IMG/VR virus record: IMGVR_UViG_3300007735_000500
Coordinates: 1-22,942 of that record
Reading direction: 5' to 3' (one strand)
Source: a virus
Length of the DNA stretch: 22,942 nt
This document shows, in pieces, positions 8,948 through 19,619 of the stretch. The notes beneath the pieces were generated by a model. That model did not search any database. It was not told where the DNA came from and saw nothing but the letters and a program-made list of their open reading frames with translations. Both the position numbers and the translations under genes were made by a program. Within the stretch, counting starts at the first letter, position 1; the number at the start of each line of letters is the position of its first letter.

Positions 8948-10354
8948 TTAAGAACGCTTAATCAACACGTGACGGTTAGCAGCACGAGTCACGAGAGCAA
9001 TCTCGGACAAGTAGTTGAACTGCAGTACGTCGAGTGTGGAGTTGGTAGCTCCCATAAACGAACCAGTCAACCAGTGCTGCATCTCACGAGAGACACCGTT
9101 GGTGGACTTGTAGTTGATTTCAAGAGGGAACTCACGGTTTCCAGTCTTGGGGTCAACTACGGTTGCCATAGGAATCATCGCACCTGCAAATCCTACACCG
9201 CTAGCGGTAGTGGTTGCAGTTGTACCAAGCAAAGTTGGCTCATTCAAGAGCTTCCAATCGTGCTTGTGGAAGGTGTAACCACCACGACCAAACGATTTGA
9301 ATCCGAGCTCGATAGCCATATTTGGGTTGTTGTTGAACGCTCCAAATTGAGTGGCAACACCCGCAGTCAGCGATGCAGTTGCAACACCTTTTGCTACGAA
9401 ATCGTCAAACGCCAAGTCCTGCAAGCGGTCTACATAGACAGCGTACTCAGGGCCAGCACCGTTACGGTCAAGGGCGGTCAAGATGATGTCGAGGTCAGCA
9501 AGGTCATTCAGATATCCGTTGGATACGATACCTCTGTTCTCAAGAGCAGAGAAGTAACCTTCGGAACCACTGATAGTACCAGAACCGTAAGCTCCAGTAG
9601 CAGCAGTTTGGTTAACTTGACCAAGCAACATCATCATCTCACGCTTGTCGATAAAGCGCTGACGAGTATCAGCTTCGCCTTTGATAAACCAACGATAGTC
9701 ACCGCCTCCTACGTCTACCCAGCCGATGTTCGTAGCTTGAGAACCAGTAACCTTATAGATTTCTTTCATAATCATATAAGGGTTGGTCCGCTTGATTACG
9801 TTCGACTCAAGGTATTGAGAAGGCTGGTCTGTTCCCTGTCCGTACAAGTTACCGATGATTGGAAGGGCGTAAGCAGTTCCAGAAGTACCAGAAGACAGAG
9901 TTCCAGAAGTCAAGCTCTGAAGAGTTACGGTGTTTGTACCAGTAGCAACAACAAGAGCACGCTGGGCATAGTTAACATTATCCCACATTACAACGTCGTT
10001 AAGACGGAATGCAGAGGCATTATTTCCAAGTGCAGGTGTACCAGAAAGTACAATTTGAGCACTAGCTGCTACGCTGGTTACGAGCGTGATGTTAGCGGTT
10101 GGGTGAAGACGCTGCTCCTCCCACCACTGTACTTCGTCGCCAGTACCAGCAGTTTTTACAGCACCAACAAGTTGCAAGAAGCCAGTGATACCTTGGTTTC
10201 CGAAGGTCTTAACAAGCTGAGTGCGGTTGTCTGGTTTGTTTACTGCGTTAATGAAGTCACCCAGAGCAATGTATTTGTCTGGGGTCGCCAGTTTAAAGGC
10301 GTTTGATTGAGAAATTGCGTTCTGTGTAAACACAGCGCCTGATGCGTTTGCCAT
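8948..10354 (-). CDS. Major capsid protein (HK97 fold, crAss-like)
   Basis: 468 residues, close to the ~490 usual for crAss-like capsid proteins. Motifs I associate with this family: EVQWWEEQRLHP near residue 80, NVIKRTNPYMIMKEIYKVTG then SQATNIGWVDVGGGDYRW, FIKGEADTRQRFIDKREMMM and EGYFSALENRGIVSNGYLND. An Ala/Ser/Thr/Gly-rich insertion at about residues 85-170 looks like a surface-exposed extra domain. No N-terminal delta-domain is obvious, consistent with a separate scaffold encoded just upstream. The leader (10355-10384) contains repeated AACCC(T)TTAA-like sequence and a purine stretch AAAAGAAA before the ATG, without a recognisable -7 box, so expression probably comes from the scaffold promoter at 11522. 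Confidence 0.92.
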   Translation of the reverse strand: MANASGAVFTQNAISQSNAFKLATPDKYIALGDFINAVNKPDNRTQLVKTFGNQGITGFLQLVGAVKTAGTGDEVQWWEEQRLHPTANITLVTSVAASAQIVLSGTPALGNNASAFRLNDVVMWDNVNYAQRALVVATGTNTVTLQSLTSGTLSSGTSGTAYALPIIGNLYGQGTDQPSQYLESNVIKRTNPYMIMKEIYKVTGSQATNIGWVDVGGGDYRWFIKGEADTRQRFIDKREMMMLLGQVNQTAATGAYGSGTISGSEGYFSALENRGIVSNGYLNDLADLDIILTALDRNGAGPEYAVYVDRLQDLAFDDFVAKGVATASLTAGVATQFGAFNNNPNMAIELGFKSFGRGGYTFHKHDWKLLNEPTLLGTTATTTASGVGFAGAMIPMATVVDPKTGNREFPLEINYKSTNGVSREMQHWLTGSFMGATNSTLDVLQFNYLSEIALVTRAANRHVLIKRS

Positions 10355-13924: not shown

Positions 13925-16384
13925 CTAAGCTTGTTGGGGGGTTTGTTGTTGGCCTCCAAAGATACTATTCATCAGCTCCTCATCTGCGGACATCAGCTCG
14001 CCTCTCTCGCCCTTTCTTTGGCTGATTAGCTTGGATTGCTCAACAGCTTGAGCCTTGACACGCTCGTCTTTTGCCTTCTCCTTTTTGTCTTCAAGTTGTT
14101 CCCTAAACATCTTGTCATTATCCGAAACCATGTTCCTCATCTCAGCCTCCAGCTTAGCCAGCTCCATCTTGAGCATATACTCGGTCTGCAACAGCTGAGT
14201 TTTGGATTGTGTTTCAAGCTCTATCTTTTGCGCTTCAAGTTGTGCTTGGGTTTGCAGTTCCTGAATCTTAGCTTGCGATGTCGCCATAACAGTCTGCTGA
14301 TTAGCCTGCGCTTGCATTTGACTGTTTTGAGCAGCTAATTCTTGATTTTGCCGAATTCTCTTCTTTCTTCTAACAAGCAGAAGCCTTTCGGCCTGGTCTA
14401 CATCCTTTAGCTTCCTAATCGCCATAGCGTCCTCAAGGTCTATCTCCTTTTGAGACAAAGAAGCCTGAATGTTTGCCTCAAGGTAGGCCTTGTCCACGTC
14501 GTTCATCTCTGTGACCACCTTCACCCCAAAGTTGTACATCGGTAGGTCAGCAAAGGATGACAGAACCTCCATATTGGCCTTTCCGATAGCGTTCTCGTAG
14601 ACTCTGTAGATGACAGAATCTGTCGGGAGAATCTGAAGACACTTAATGATATCTTCACATACCTTCTTGAACAGAACCATTGAGGAGTGCGTGATGTCGT
14701 AGGTGGCGTTGTTTGAAGCGTCAATCGCTTGCTGGCGAACCCCAACAAGAGCATCACCCTTGGGTGTTGAACCGTCCACAACCTCGTTGATACCCGTAGC
14801 ATCACGAATCATTCGCAGATAGTGGTTGTAAAGAGCCACAAGCTCGTTGATGTTCCGAATCTGATTCTCAATCGAGCGTATGGGTGGGTTTTGGAATCCG
14901 CCCTCTGGGTTCTTGGAGCGATAGTAGAATACACCAGTTTGCTCGTAGATGTCCTGAATCTGCAAGGGCTGTAGGTCTCCACCTTGCCCAAGCTGCACAT
15001 TCTCAAGACCCTCAATGTCAATGATAAGACCATCGGGCTTTGCCTTCGCAATGGACTGCTGAATCTTCAAGTGCGTAATCTGAAGCTGGTCAGCAAACCC
15101 AATCACCGAGGAAACCATTGACTTAGGCTGCAGCCTGCGCATATTCACGGCAATGGCGCTGTAAGACATACGGGCTCTTGTGATGTCGTGGATGTTCTTA
15201 GGAACATTCTTCTTCATCCCGTAGCCGTACAGCATATCCGTCCCAAGCACGTATGAGCCACCGTAAACTGTAGCATACGACATCTTGAAAGGCTTCCTGT
15301 CGTACACGCTCTCACGTGGAGGTGTGTACATAGCCCCCTTGTAGTAGAAGCCTACATTACCGAACTTGGACTCCTTGCTCTCGTAGTAGACATTGTCCAC
15401 CGACATAAACTCAAAGTCAAGCACCTCGATGATGTACTCATCGTATCCATAGGTCATCCGATTGGTGTACCTATCGTAATTGGAGTAACCCATTCTGCCT
15501 GGGTTGTTGGAGTATTTGTACTGAACATCTCTAGCAATCTTCTCGTACTGCTCCTCGGTTAGCTCATCCCCTGCAATCCTCTTGAGCTCCTGAATGCTAA
15601 TCCTTTTGATGTGACCAGCATAGGTCAAGTCGGCCATATTGGGGTCCTCTGTGTAAGAGTGAACGAAATAGGCTGGGTCTACATAGTTGGCGACAATCCC
15701 GTAGTTGGGGTCGTTCTCACGCTTAACAACAGCCATCCCAAGCGACACAAGGTCGTTTACGCAGCGTCTAAAAGTCCCGTCATTGAAGTCATTCCACTCA
15801 AGCGTTAGATTTGTTGCAATCTGTGAAGCAATCTCCGCATTGGTCTTGATGTTGCTCTCAAGAAAGATTTCAGCTTCCTCTGGGGTTTCTGGGATTTCAT
15901 TTGCATCTACCCCTGTGTTTACCCCAGCCTGATTAGCCATCTTAATCAGTTCCTTGTTTTCTACTTGGAACTTAACCTTGGCCTTCTTTTTCTCCTTCTC
16001 CGAAATAGACAAAGGGTCAACAGCCTCCACATTGGGGTAAGGCTTGCGACCCAGAATTTTGTTTACAACGATGCGAACGAACTTGGGGACGATGGGTACT
16101 GGAGACCAGTCAATGTTAATCAAGGAACCGTCCCCGTTGTTTGGGTCTAGCGATGTAAGAATCTGCTTGTAAACGGTGACATCCTGAGTCCCGTTGGCGT
16201 AATCCCTGTTTCTCTCAAACTCCCCGTACCTTCTTGCAAATGCGCTCTGCACATCGTCTGTTCGACCCCATTGGCTTTCAATAGCCTTTCCGTATTTCAA
16301 CCCATACTCCTTGGTCTGTTTGACTTCCGTAGAAGCCAAAGGGTTAGGGAAGTTCCCGCTGGGGAAGTTTATGTTTTTCGCCAT
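13925..16384 (-). CDS. Portal protein (crAss-like) with long C-terminal coiled coil
   Basis: 819 residues. A wing/clip region covers about residues 90-520, with WSPVPIVPKFVRIVVNKILG, RRCVNDLVSLGMAVVKREND and YVDPAYFVHSYTEDPNMADL. The segment ENQIRNINELVALYN then LRMIRDATGINEVVDGSTPK (about 506-542), followed by LVGVRQQAIDASNNATYDI, is characteristic of podovirus portals in this group. Residues ~660-795 are an uninterrupted Gln/Glu/Lys-rich helix, an extended C-terminal barrel or core-contact domain. Forms the dodecameric DNA gate at the capsid vertex. It lies 48 bases after the terminase stop and has its own -7 box at 16410-16417. Confidence 0.92.
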   Translation of the reverse strand: MAKNINFPSGNFPNPLASTEVKQTKEYGLKYGKAIESQWGRTDDVQSAFARRYGEFERNRDYANGTQDVTVYKQILTSLDPNNGDGSLINIDWSPVPIVPKFVRIVVNKILGRKPYPNVEAVDPLSISEKEKKKAKVKFQVENKELIKMANQAGVNTGVDANEIPETPEEAEIFLESNIKTNAEIASQIATNLTLEWNDFNDGTFRRCVNDLVSLGMAVVKRENDPNYGIVANYVDPAYFVHSYTEDPNMADLTYAGHIKRISIQELKRIAGDELTEEQYEKIARDVQYKYSNNPGRMGYSNYDRYTNRMTYGYDEYIIEVLDFEFMSVDNVYYESKESKFGNVGFYYKGAMYTPPRESVYDRKPFKMSYATVYGGSYVLGTDMLYGYGMKKNVPKNIHDITRARMSYSAIAVNMRRLQPKSMVSSVIGFADQLQITHLKIQQSIAKAKPDGLIIDIEGLENVQLGQGGDLQPLQIQDIYEQTGVFYYRSKNPEGGFQNPPIRSIENQIRNINELVALYNHYLRMIRDATGINEVVDGSTPKGDALVGVRQQAIDASNNATYDITHSSMVLFKKVCEDIIKCLQILPTDSVIYRVYENAIGKANMEVLSSFADLPMYNFGVKVVTEMNDVDKAYLEANIQASLSQKEIDLEDAMAIRKLKDVDQAERLLLVRRKKRIRQNQELAAQNSQMQAQANQQTVMATSQAKIQELQTQAQLEAQKIELETQSKTQLLQTEYMLKMELAKLEAEMRNMVSDNDKMFREQLEDKKEKAKDERVKAQAVEQSKLISQRKGERGELMSADEELMNSIFGGQQQTPQQA

Positions 16385-16432: not shown

Positions 16433-18562
16433 TTATAAGCGAGTTATAGGCTTGTGCTTCCTGAAGAAGACTTTATTTGACAAATCGGCTTTTACCTTGG
16501 CTACCTTGTACTTCTGAGCTGCCAAAAGGGCAAGCCCAGCAGATATCGTTAAGTCGTACTTGGTTCTGTCATCCACCTTGAAGTTAATCCAATCCTCAAG
16601 GGTTCTGTCCAGATACATCTTCCCGTAGGTTCCTGAGTCGTCGTTGATGCCAACGTGCTCGTGAATATAGGACTCAATGGCCTGTGCGTGAGCCTGGATA
16701 ACGTCCTGGCTATTAGAGGGTATGCCCTTGGTTTTTATATTTGCATTACTATGTGGAGCCCTGAGATGTTCTGGTCGGTCAAGGATGAACCCGTCGTAGC
16801 CTCTTGCCTCAAAGTATCGGACAATCCCGTATTTATTGTTTTCAATGAGAAGTGGGTATCCGAAGAATACGGCAGCTTGGAGAACGTCCTCATAGAAAAT
16901 CCTCGCAAGAGGTGGCCTCTCTGCGTATTCGGCAACAAACAGGTTGGATGGGTGCTCAATATTGAATTTGTTGAATAGGTGGCAAGCGCCCTTGGAGCCC
17001 CTTCCGTCCATTGTATTGTCAATATCGTAGGAGTCGACCCCGCCACAGCCTAGGAAATCATTGCCTGGGAACCACTTTCCGTTCCTGGTCACCTTGTTGT
17101 TCCTCATATGCTCTGGTGGAAGCCAAGAAATCCTCCACTTCCCGTTCTCGCTTGCAGACCAAACCACCTCGCTGTCCTGTATTCCGTTCTTCCAAATGAA
17201 GTTACCCCTCACCACAGGGTTAGGGTACAGCTCTCTATTGTACTGCAACTGCTCGTAAATCTTACCAATGTTGAAGTGAGAGGACTTTGTGGACTCCCTG
17301 AAGGCTTCGTCAATCGTCCAAGGGAACTGCCTGATAACTTCGTTCAACTCATAGCCATCCTTGTTCAAAGCCTTTCTTTCGTTGGCCAAATAAGCCTTTG
17401 CACCTATCTTCACGAAGTCCCCATCCATCGTCCTGATGGCGTGCTTGGGGTTCTCAATGATAGGAATCCCGTATGGGTCAAAAAAGCCTTCTAAGGCCTC
17501 GTAGGCGGGGATAAAGATGCGGTATAGGCCAGACTTCGTCCGACCGTTTTCGTTGCGTTCTAGAGGGTCTGAGTCGTTGTAGAGCTTACGGAAGTTAGCG
17601 CCTCCCTTGTCCAACTGGTTAACCGTGCTACCTACCAGCGCTTTACCGACAACCTTCTTACCAACGATAAGGCAAGTCCTGTGGATTCTCCAAACCTCGG
17701 TGATATCCATTGGTTTTTCCCATTTTCCCGCCTCATCCAAGTACAACAGATGGAGCTTTTCACCGTCGTAGGCGTTTGATGTGGTGTTTTTCCAGTTAAT
17801 CACCGTGTCCAAGGCTTCTGTCTTACCAATCGTCTTGTTGGTCTTGGTGATTCGCCTTGCTGGCTCTCTAAAAGCTAGCTCCATCCTGGGGTTGGTTGTG
17901 CCGTCCTGGATAGGTTTAAAGAAAAAAGGGTAGCTCCTGTACATCGGGAGGATTTTCTTCATAAAGATATTCTCCTGAGCGTCGTTACCCGTTTTGGACA
18001 TAATGCCTAGCACCTTGTTGGAGACTGAAGTGCCCTTGTTGACCGTAATAGCCGAACTAATGTTCGTATAACCGCTACGACGGCACTTCACATAGAGCTG
18101 GCCTAGGCATCGTGGGTCTACAAAGCACGCCTCAGCGTGTATGAACAGCTTTCTCTGGAAGTCTAGGTAGCCACCGTAACCGATATCCATCTGGCTCCAC
18201 TGCAGAAGCATATAGTGGTCACCTGTGATGTAGGTCGGCTCCCCGTTATTGTAGAACCAAACCCCGTTTCTGCGCCTTTCGAACTCCTGTTTGATGTACG
18301 GGGAATACTTTTCCTTGAATTCCTTGGGTTGCTGGTTCCACTCATCCATCGAGCGAATCTTCTCAAGCTCTCTGGGAACCTCTAATCGTTTCCATTTCTG
18401 GTCTTTTTGCGGAAGATTTAGAAATAGAATCCTCTTTTTTTCAATCTGTTTGGGTAGTTGGATGAATATACCGTCAATCTCAACGACCTGCCCCTCTGTA
18501 TCGTCAGGGCAAATGTTGATGACAGGCTCTTTGAACCCTTTGACGTTCTTTAATCCAGCCAT
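16433..18562 (-). CDS. terL: Terminase large subunit (DNA-packaging ATPase/nuclease)
   Basis: 709 residues, the size of crAss-like large terminases. An N-terminal ~150-residue extension precedes the ATPase. A Walker-A-like loop is at 157-165 (YVKCRRSGYT), deviating from the canonical GKT/S ending. Walker B and catalytic acid are LLYLDEAGKWE (272-282, Glu277). A coupling motif VGSTVNQ is at 310-316. The nuclease domain begins near 500 with the acidic motif GGVDSYDID (507-515), followed by VAEYAERPP, LLIENNKYG and a terminal basic tail. It cuts and pumps DNA into the procapsid through the portal. Its start shares a base with the preceding gene's stop (TAATG), suggesting tight stoichiometric coupling with that small protein. 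Confidence 0.95.
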   Translation of the reverse strand: MAGLKNVKGFKEPVINICPDDTEGQVVEIDGIFIQLPKQIEKKRILFLNLPQKDQKWKRLEVPRELEKIRSMDEWNQQPKEFKEKYSPYIKQEFERRRNGVWFYNNGEPTYITGDHYMLLQWSQMDIGYGGYLDFQRKLFIHAEACFVDPRCLGQLYVKCRRSGYTNISSAITVNKGTSVSNKVLGIMSKTGNDAQENIFMKKILPMYRSYPFFFKPIQDGTTNPRMELAFREPARRITKTNKTIGKTEALDTVINWKNTTSNAYDGEKLHLLYLDEAGKWEKPMDITEVWRIHRTCLIVGKKVVGKALVGSTVNQLDKGGANFRKLYNDSDPLERNENGRTKSGLYRIFIPAYEALEGFFDPYGIPIIENPKHAIRTMDGDFVKIGAKAYLANERKALNKDGYELNEVIRQFPWTIDEAFRESTKSSHFNIGKIYEQLQYNRELYPNPVVRGNFIWKNGIQDSEVVWSASENGKWRISWLPPEHMRNNKVTRNGKWFPGNDFLGCGGVDSYDIDNTMDGRGSKGACHLFNKFNIEHPSNLFVAEYAERPPLARIFYEDVLQAAVFFGYPLLIENNKYGIVRYFEARGYDGFILDRPEHLRAPHSNANIKTKGIPSNSQDVIQAHAQAIESYIHEHVGINDDSGTYGKMYLDRTLEDWINFKVDDRTKYDLTISAGLALLAAQKYKVAKVKADLSNKVFFRKHKPITRL

Positions 18563-18855
18563 TACTTAGCAAATTCCTCTGCAAAACCGCTTGAGTAGTC
18601 GGACTCTTGCTCAAAGTCCCCATCGCTTTTGAGTGTAGCAATCATCTCCTCAATCTTCTGCCTCTCTTGCAGCAGCTCCCTAGCATCTGCAACCGTCTGC
18701 TTGATAGCCGATAGCTCGGCTTTCCTTGCTGCTCCAACAAGCTCCTGTGGAATGGGCTTACGCACCTCTTCAATAAGATTGGTGATGGCGTGCTCCATCG
18801 ATATCAAGAGCTGTTGGGCAGCCTCAATGGTGGAAAATTTAGGGCTTTTCGACAT
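18562..18855 (-). CDS. Small helical protein upstream of terL, terminase small-subunit candidate
   Basis: 97 residues, no recognised family. It is almost entirely helical: an amphipathic first half (STIEAAQQLLISMEHAITNL, IEEVRKP) and a coiled coil at about 45-75 (IKQTVADARELLQERQKIEE). The tail is acidic and Ser/Phe-rich (SDYSSGFAEEFAK). Position, size and coupling to terL would suit a small terminase, but I see no helix-turn-helix for DNA binding. It overlaps the co-chaperonin-like gene by 17 bases. A terminase cofactor without DNA binding is an equal possibility. Confidence 0.55.
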   Translation of the reverse strand: MSKSPKFSTIEAAQQLLISMEHAITNLIEEVRKPIPQELVGAARKAELSAIKQTVADARELLQERQKIEEMIATLKSDGDFEQESDYSSGFAEEFAK

Positions 18856-19426
18856 AGAGGATATCTTCTATACGCATTCTGTAAACCGTCTCCCCTTCAA
18901 GCTCCATCTCGTAGTCTGCATTATTCGCAAAGTAAACCTTGTCCCCTTTTTTAATGCCCTCTCTGTCAAGCTCATCTGATTCGTACAGAATCGTAGCTAC
19001 ATTCTTCTTAACAGATGGTTCTAGAAGTAAAATACCGCTCTCTGTTTTCTCCCCCTCCTCCTTTTCAATCCCGACAAACACCCAGTTGGAGAAAAGCCTT
19101 ATATTCCCATTCCGCTTGTAGGCATAGGCCTGCGTGGCGTGACCACCGCTTTCGCTGTATCGCACAATATAGAGCTCCTTGTCTATCTCGGCTCTTGCGT
19201 CCAAAACGACGTGGTGGTGGAAATAAAGGGTATCCCCGACCTGGACAGGGGTCTTGTATTTGAGAGGTACACCAACGACCTCCCCGTAGCAATATCGGTT
19301 TTCGAACTCCCTGAACTTGCTTTCAAGGTAAAGCTCCTTCCCAGCCACGGTGATGGTGTCCTTGAACTTCTTTGGTAGCTTCACCAAGAAGTCGTGAATA
19401 GGCGTTATCTTAGAACTTGCAGTCAT
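18839..19426 (-). CDS. GroES-like co-chaperonin with two tandem GroES domains
   Basis: 195 residues from the ATG at 19426; the in-frame TTG at 19432 adds two residues and is less likely. The C-terminal half (109-195) follows GroES closely: a strand at NIRLFSNWVFVGI, a mobile-loop equivalent at TESGILLLEP (128-137), then GIKKGDKVYFANNADYEME and a final RIEDILYVEKP like the GroES 'SDIL' terminus. The N-terminal half (7-106) repeats the plan: ITPIHDFLVKLP, a loop with GKELYL, YGEVVGVP, then VQVGDTLYFHHHVVLD and IDKELYIVRYSE. It likely caps host GroEL to fold phage capsid proteins, as T4 gp31 does. Tandem GroES domains are known from chloroplast Cpn20. The domain call is from eye alignment. Confidence 0.75.
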   Translation of the reverse strand: MTASSKITPIHDFLVKLPKKFKDTITVAGKELYLESKFREFENRYCYGEVVGVPLKYKTPVQVGDTLYFHHHVVLDARAEIDKELYIVRYSESGGHATQAYAYKRNGNIRLFSNWVFVGIEKEEGEKTESGILLLEPSVKKNVATILYESDELDREGIKKGDKVYFANNADYEMELEGETVYRMRIEDILYVEKP

Positions 19427-19619
19427 ATTCAACGATTACAGGCATATTTTTAATGGACTTCCAGTGAAGAGTCCCCTCACTGTTTTCAATAAAAACCTCA
19501 AAGCGGTCCCCTTCGTCGTTCTCAACGATGGCTACGACCTGACCACCACCAGCTGGCATACCGACAAAGTATGCCATAGCGTCCTTTGGGTTTACACCGA
19601 TAATAATCTTGCGTATCAT
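19410..19619 (-). CDS. Small conserved phage protein, unknown function
   Basis: 69 residues in five or six beta-strands (IRKIIIGVNPKDAMAYFVG; GGGQVVAIVENDEGDRFEVF; LHWKSIKNMPVIVEYDCKF). The 'NPKDAMAY.VG' and 'HWK...PVIVEYD' ends resemble small SH3-like proteins in marine phages, but I have no named family. It overlaps the co-chaperonin gene start by 17 bases and begins two bases after the gene at 19621, so it is coupled to both. No signal, membrane or catalytic feature visible. Confidence 0.6.
   Translation of the reverse strand: MIRKIIIGVNPKDAMAYFVGMPAGGGQVVAIVENDEGDRFEVFIENSEGTLHWKSIKNMPVIVEYDCKF

Follow-up and report, generated by a model that had tools for sequence, protein, structure and literature searches.

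A tandem GroES-fold protein in the head operon of a marine phage, probably a Cpn20-like co-chaperonin

The head and packaging operon in a viral DNA stretch of 22,942 nucleotides (IMG/VR record IMGVR_UViG_3300007735_000500, positions 1 to 22,942; hereafter the window) contains a gene whose product appears to resemble GroES twice over, which raises the question of whether a phage makes a two-domain lid for a chaperonin and which proteins such a lid would serve. The phage is marine, and comparison with known systems suggests that the tandem protein is probably a tailored lid, supplied by the phage itself, for the chamber in which bacterial proteins fold. In particular, we favour a phage-encoded, Cpn20-like tandem co-chaperonin that would act as a GroEL lid serving head assembly, a reading to which we assign a probability of approx. 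0.6. An earlier note on this DNA had placed the gene at 18839-19426; the coordinates are right, and the open reading frame itself lies on the minus strand (Table 1), the same span of the plus strand being interrupted by stops. The motifs VGDTLYF (residues 63-69) and KGDKVYF (residues 160-166) are also where that note had put them. Purifying selection is strong in both halves: in comparison with three relatives, dN/dS is 0.04-0.08 in each half, and the differences fall mostly at synonymous sites. These values demonstrate that the tandem ORF is a real protein, selected along its whole length. Moreover, the phrog_13932 profile, annotated 'co-chaperonin GroES', matches residues 10-193 (E 6e-30).

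Table 1. Features of the tandem gene and its surroundings in the window
Feature	Position	Strand	Remarks
Tandem GroES-fold co-chaperonin gene	18839..19426	minus	ATG 19426, stop 18841-18839; 195 aa
N-terminal GroES-fold domain, residues 1-107	19106..19426	minus	hhalign with shuffles; fold of N half alone
C-terminal GroES (Cpn10) domain, residues 108-195	18842..19105	minus	Pfam Cpn10, hhalign, VIA
N-half mobile loop, residues 19-48; LYL at 32-34	19283..19372	minus	constant loop in clade; low pLDDT
C-half mobile loop, residues 121-145 (SGILLL)	18992..19066	minus	variable; lost in several lineages
His cluster H70-H72, right after GDTLYF	19211..19219	minus	invariant in A1; HH in most distant lineages
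69-aa ORF, adjoins upstream, overlaps tandem gene start	19410..19619	minus	conserved, 90/94 distinct loci
97-aa ORF, overlaps tandem gene end, abuts TerL	18562..18855	minus	conserved
Terminase large subunit (TerL)	16433..18562	minus	phrog_6681 E 3e-185
Portal protein	13925..16384	minus	phrog_6547 E 2e-201
Virion structural protein at major capsid protein position	8948..10354	minus	phrog_13704 E 2e-111

The C-terminal half has the GroES beta-barrel of the GroES/Cpn10 superfamily. Pfam Cpn10 matches residues 111-190 (E 7e-8) with a score above the gathering cut-off, comparison with GroES by hhalign gives P 2.7e-16, and the half superposes on E. coli GroES in 4pkn with a VIA Z of 8.5. The NCBIfam GroES equivalogs reach at best 26.5 bits, against a cut-off of 109 (GroES cut-offs are 96 or more). 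The phage chain is like bacterial GroES/Cpn10 in the fold of both halves and in the Pfam score of its C half, and unlike it in carrying two domains and in staying far from the NCBIfam cut-offs.

The N-terminal half escapes the family searches. Pfam finds no Cpn10 match there in the window protein or in any of 23 relatives, and the GroES matches of the NCBIfam and PDB profile searches are confined to the C half. However, an N-half profile compared by hhalign with bacterial and phage GroES gives an end-to-end alignment (probability 92%, P 5.7e-7). Its score of 41.0 is not approached by any of 300 column-shuffled profiles (best 20.6) or by the reversed profile (13.0), and these controls rule out a chance resemblance. 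The one-domain phage GroES profile phrog_3188 detects the N half of the Elemovirus protein at 3e-4 and that of the window protein at 0.022. Folded alone, the N half is modelled with a pLDDT of 86, and in the structural search the first 15 rows all belong to the GroES family at Z 7.9-6.1 (values below 8, not strong taken singly), T4 gp31 among them at Z 6.4, and the next row has Z 5.3. Since Foldseek gives only weak matches when run with this half by itself (best E 0.05) and the structural Z values stay below 8, the assignment rests on profile and fold jointly; together, they place a GroES beta-barrel in the N half as well. The earlier note had asked for each half to be tried separately by profile and structure, and both return GroES. 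It had also named profile matches in the C half only as the outcome that would count against a tandem: this is what single-sequence Pfam searching returns, but not what the profile-profile comparison with its shuffles returns.

A full-length AlphaFold2 model built on a 25-sequence alignment (pLDDT 82, pTM 0.76) indicates how the two domains may be arranged. Its best PDB match is 7ekq chain R, the Cpn20 co-chaperonin subunit of Chlamydomonas (Foldseek E 3.5e-6, TM 0.62), which VIA aligns over 168 residues, spanning model residues 1-194, with a Z of 10.6. As both domains superpose on Cpn20 simultaneously, their predicted relative placement is that of Cpn20, with the two GroES domains side by side in one chain, and this speaks against a stacked, taller lid. 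The profile comparison with shuffles and the structural matches of the whole model and of the N half thus uphold the proposal of two fused GroES-fold domains with the Cpn20 architecture in a phage protein. Like chloroplast and apicoplast Cpn20, the phage protein joins two GroES domains head to tail within a chain of about 195 residues and matches over its full length in structure; unlike Cpn20, it is encoded in a head operon, shares only about 16% identity with it, and has relatives in which the C loop is missing. As far as can be told, the phage tandem arose separately from Cpn20, and the likeness may be a convergent fusion.

The family extends well beyond the window. A scan of a viral collection with the protein finds 328 relatives, and a scan with the alignment finds at least 552 matching stretches. 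Named relatives occur in Cellulophaga phages (Pachyviridae, Pervagoviridae), Maribacter phage Panino, the uncultured ctfjg026 and Elemovirus, whereas Tenacibaculum phage Gundel, also of Pachyviridae, is without the tandem gene. The full-length profile match and the place before TerL make the window protein a member of the phrog_13932 family, shared with Cellulophaga phages phi13:2, phi38:1 and Calle, although the window clade is divergent from these, at 23-26% identity. The earlier note had spoken of a crAss-like phage. This affiliation is not borne out: the TerL matches are to flavobacterial podoviruses, with 29-47% identity across more than 90% of the protein, and the same phages are matched by the portal protein, whereas the crAss-type 'cr' phages give only partial TerL matches (24-35% over 13-49%) and none for the portal. 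The closest relatives by TerL and portal are Elemovirus, Pervagoviridae, Pachyviridae and ctfjg026, which places the phage outside Crassvirales. A bacterial or prophage gene was considered and rejected, as relatives occur in only two metagenome-assembled genomes, one of them truncated.

In a domain tree of few columns, which leaves the deep forks unresolved and took in no plastid sequences, the N halves form one clade (100/100) and the C halves another (96/96). These groupings suggest that the fusion most likely occurred once, as a single ancient event before the phage families split. A recent internal duplication is rejected because the two halves of the window protein align with a negative score, the match between the N and C profiles extends over no more than 32 columns and the halves fall in separate clades.

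The surroundings of the gene are equally conserved. The order 69-aa ORF, tandem gene, 97-aa ORF, TerL is found in 90 of the 94 distinct loci, the window counted; of the other four, one is truncated and three come from reference phages, in which the tandem gene precedes TerL. The 69-aa ORF has no family match. The 97-aa protein ends in GFAEEFA, and in phages without this ORF TerL is about 877 aa long, with an extra N-terminal part that contains GFAEKFA; judging from this weak, 14-residue match, the 97-aa protein may be a split-off N-terminal part of TerL or a small terminase. The virion structural protein at 8948..10354, whose positional counterpart in Calle is annotated as the major capsid protein, is a possible client of the tandem protein.

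In GroES, a hydrophobic triad in the mobile loop is the element that binds GroEL. It had been claimed for the window protein that only the second half keeps a clear triad, so that the C half would be the sole candidate for GroEL binding. Both loops of the protein carry such a triad, and comparison of 24 non-redundant window-clade sequences turns the claim around. The N loop has 30 residues in all 24, with a hydrophobic triad in each (LYL, MYL, IFL and so on), whereas the C loop varies between 24 and 27 residues; mean pairwise identity is 54% for the N loop vs 25% for the C loop. Moreover, the C loop is shortened and its triad lost in Elemovirus, Panino and ctfjg026. Both loops are modelled with comparatively low confidence (pLDDT 68-77), as is expected of mobile loops. 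The constancy of the N loop and the variation or loss of the C loop argue that, if the protein does bind, the constant binding site is in the N half. In one close relative, a single metagenome contig (L013, 976-1500), an in-frame deletion of 57 bases removes precisely the C-half mobile loop; the deletion is flanked by short similar sequence and reflects either a variant that has lost the loop in nature or a mistake in assembly.

A second conserved element of the N half is the His cluster H70-H72, a possible metal site. The HH pair is retained in Pervagoviridae, Elemovirus, Panino, ctfjg026 and an Ekhidna MAG and is absent from phi13:2; host GroES has GKY at this position. The conservation of the N loop and the His cluster seems to exceed the needs of a generic GroES loop, which counts against reading the protein as a Cpn20-like lid. 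The loss of the C loop in several lineages and the scores below the NCBIfam GroES cut-offs weigh on the same side.

The tandem gene also coexists with other chaperonin genes. Cellulophaga phages phi38:1 and Calle, Elemovirus, Panino and ctfjg026 carry a complete pair of GroEL and one-domain GroES besides it, and phi13:2 has a one-domain GroES. Mass spectrometry has detected the phage GroEL in cells infected with phi38:1 (PMC13288928). Among 21 environmental contigs of window relatives (19-76 kb, some incomplete), neither GroEL nor one-domain GroES was found, only the tandem gene. Thus, the tandem gene appears to be a fixed part of the head operon, whereas the GroEL/GroES cassette comes and goes. 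Since phages that encode GroEL and a one-domain GroES themselves still keep the tandem, it is not just a stand-in for GroES, and the idea that it replaced a lost GroES is weakened accordingly.

These observations can be accommodated in the following scheme, which draws on analogy with known lids. Each polypeptide would contribute two GroES-fold domains, predicted to lie side by side, to one lid ring. The mobile loops, chiefly the conserved N loop with its L-Y-L edge, would dock on the apical domains of GroEL, which in the window phage would presumably be the host's. The lid would then close the chamber over phage clients, the likeliest being the capsid or another head protein, because the tandem gene lies in the head/packaging operon directly before TerL and portal. 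A head-specific GroEL lid has a precedent in T4 gp31, which serves gp23. The phage protein is like gp31 in its GroES fold, and a head-related role is a working analogy between the two; unlike single-domain gp31, it has two domains, and no sequence match between them was found. With two domains per chain and seven sites on GroEL, three tandem chains and one single-domain GroES, from host or phage, could make up the seven; alternatively, a lid of six or eight domains might sit with one mismatch. GroEL works with lids of six and eight domains, and the lids found natively in plastids are probably hetero-rings of seven domains (PMC5780408). Furthermore, Plasmodium Cpn20 substitutes for GroES in E. 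coli (PMC3542282).

The strongest alternative, which we consider unlikely yet worth taking seriously, is that the protein is a GroES-fold factor which flavobacterial podoviruses dedicate to head assembly or packaging and which acts outside the chaperonin cycle, ringing or capping terminase, portal or capsid without GroEL, while chaperonin work is done by the host's proteins or by the separate GroEL/GroES of some relatives. The constant position beside TerL, the retention of the tandem in phages that also encode GroEL and a one-domain GroES, the loss of the C loop in Elemovirus, Panino, ctfjg026 and L013, the tight constraint on the N loop and an invariant His cluster that host GroES lacks would all suit such a factor. 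However, the GroEL-binding triads are retained, and gp31 shows that head specificity and GroEL binding can go together, so that the GroEL lid is preferred. Lids of this kind may nevertheless serve other rings: the Chlamydomonas CPN11/20/23 complex associates with an axial side of the Clp core, Cpn20 thus also capping ClpP, and such lids can therefore cap other machines (PMC8889267). This association, and the tight, mismatched lid that an even number of domains could make, also lend something to the improbable view that the protein is a regulator or sequestering lid which, in the infected cell, would block host GroEL or a protease such as ClpP, or redirect it, and would not promote folding of phage proteins; the gene sits, however, in the late head operon and not among early takeover genes. 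That only the C half is GroES, and the beta domain before it unrelated, as the family searches and the weak Foldseek result would have it, is very improbable in view of the shuffle-controlled profile match, the GroES family in the first 15 structural rows, the phrog_3188 match of Elemovirus and the superposition of both domains on Cpn20 at once.

Tandem GroES lids are described for plastids. In phage records, the gene is already annotated as 'co-chaperonin GroES/cpn10', with no mention of two domains, and chaperonin cpn10 is listed among the core proteins of Pervagoviridae (PMC8776804). A description of the tandem architecture in phages was not found in the open-access literature, outside which most subscription papers lie; only a chloroplast review was found. 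The phage tandem is widespread, with over 500 matching stretches within a single viral collection, and offers an independent natural system for studying how even-numbered lids fit seven-fold chaperonins and whether phages adjust the host chaperonin to suit their head proteins. In particular, division of labour is directly testable in those cultured phages in which the tandem protein occurs together with GroEL and one-domain GroES (Cellulophaga phages phi38:1 and Calle, Flavobacterium phage Elemovirus and Maribacter phage Panino).

Additional GroES-like genes occur elsewhere. Besides a normal GroES, most of the sampled Bacteroidota genomes (G015-G056) have another ORF that resembles Cpn10 but is divergent, its open frame being about 130-180 aa long. 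Several jumbo phages (Pectobacterium phage CBB, Cronobacter phage GAP32 and Erwinia phages) have two separate GroES-like places per record and may thus parallel the tandem protein with a pair of genes.
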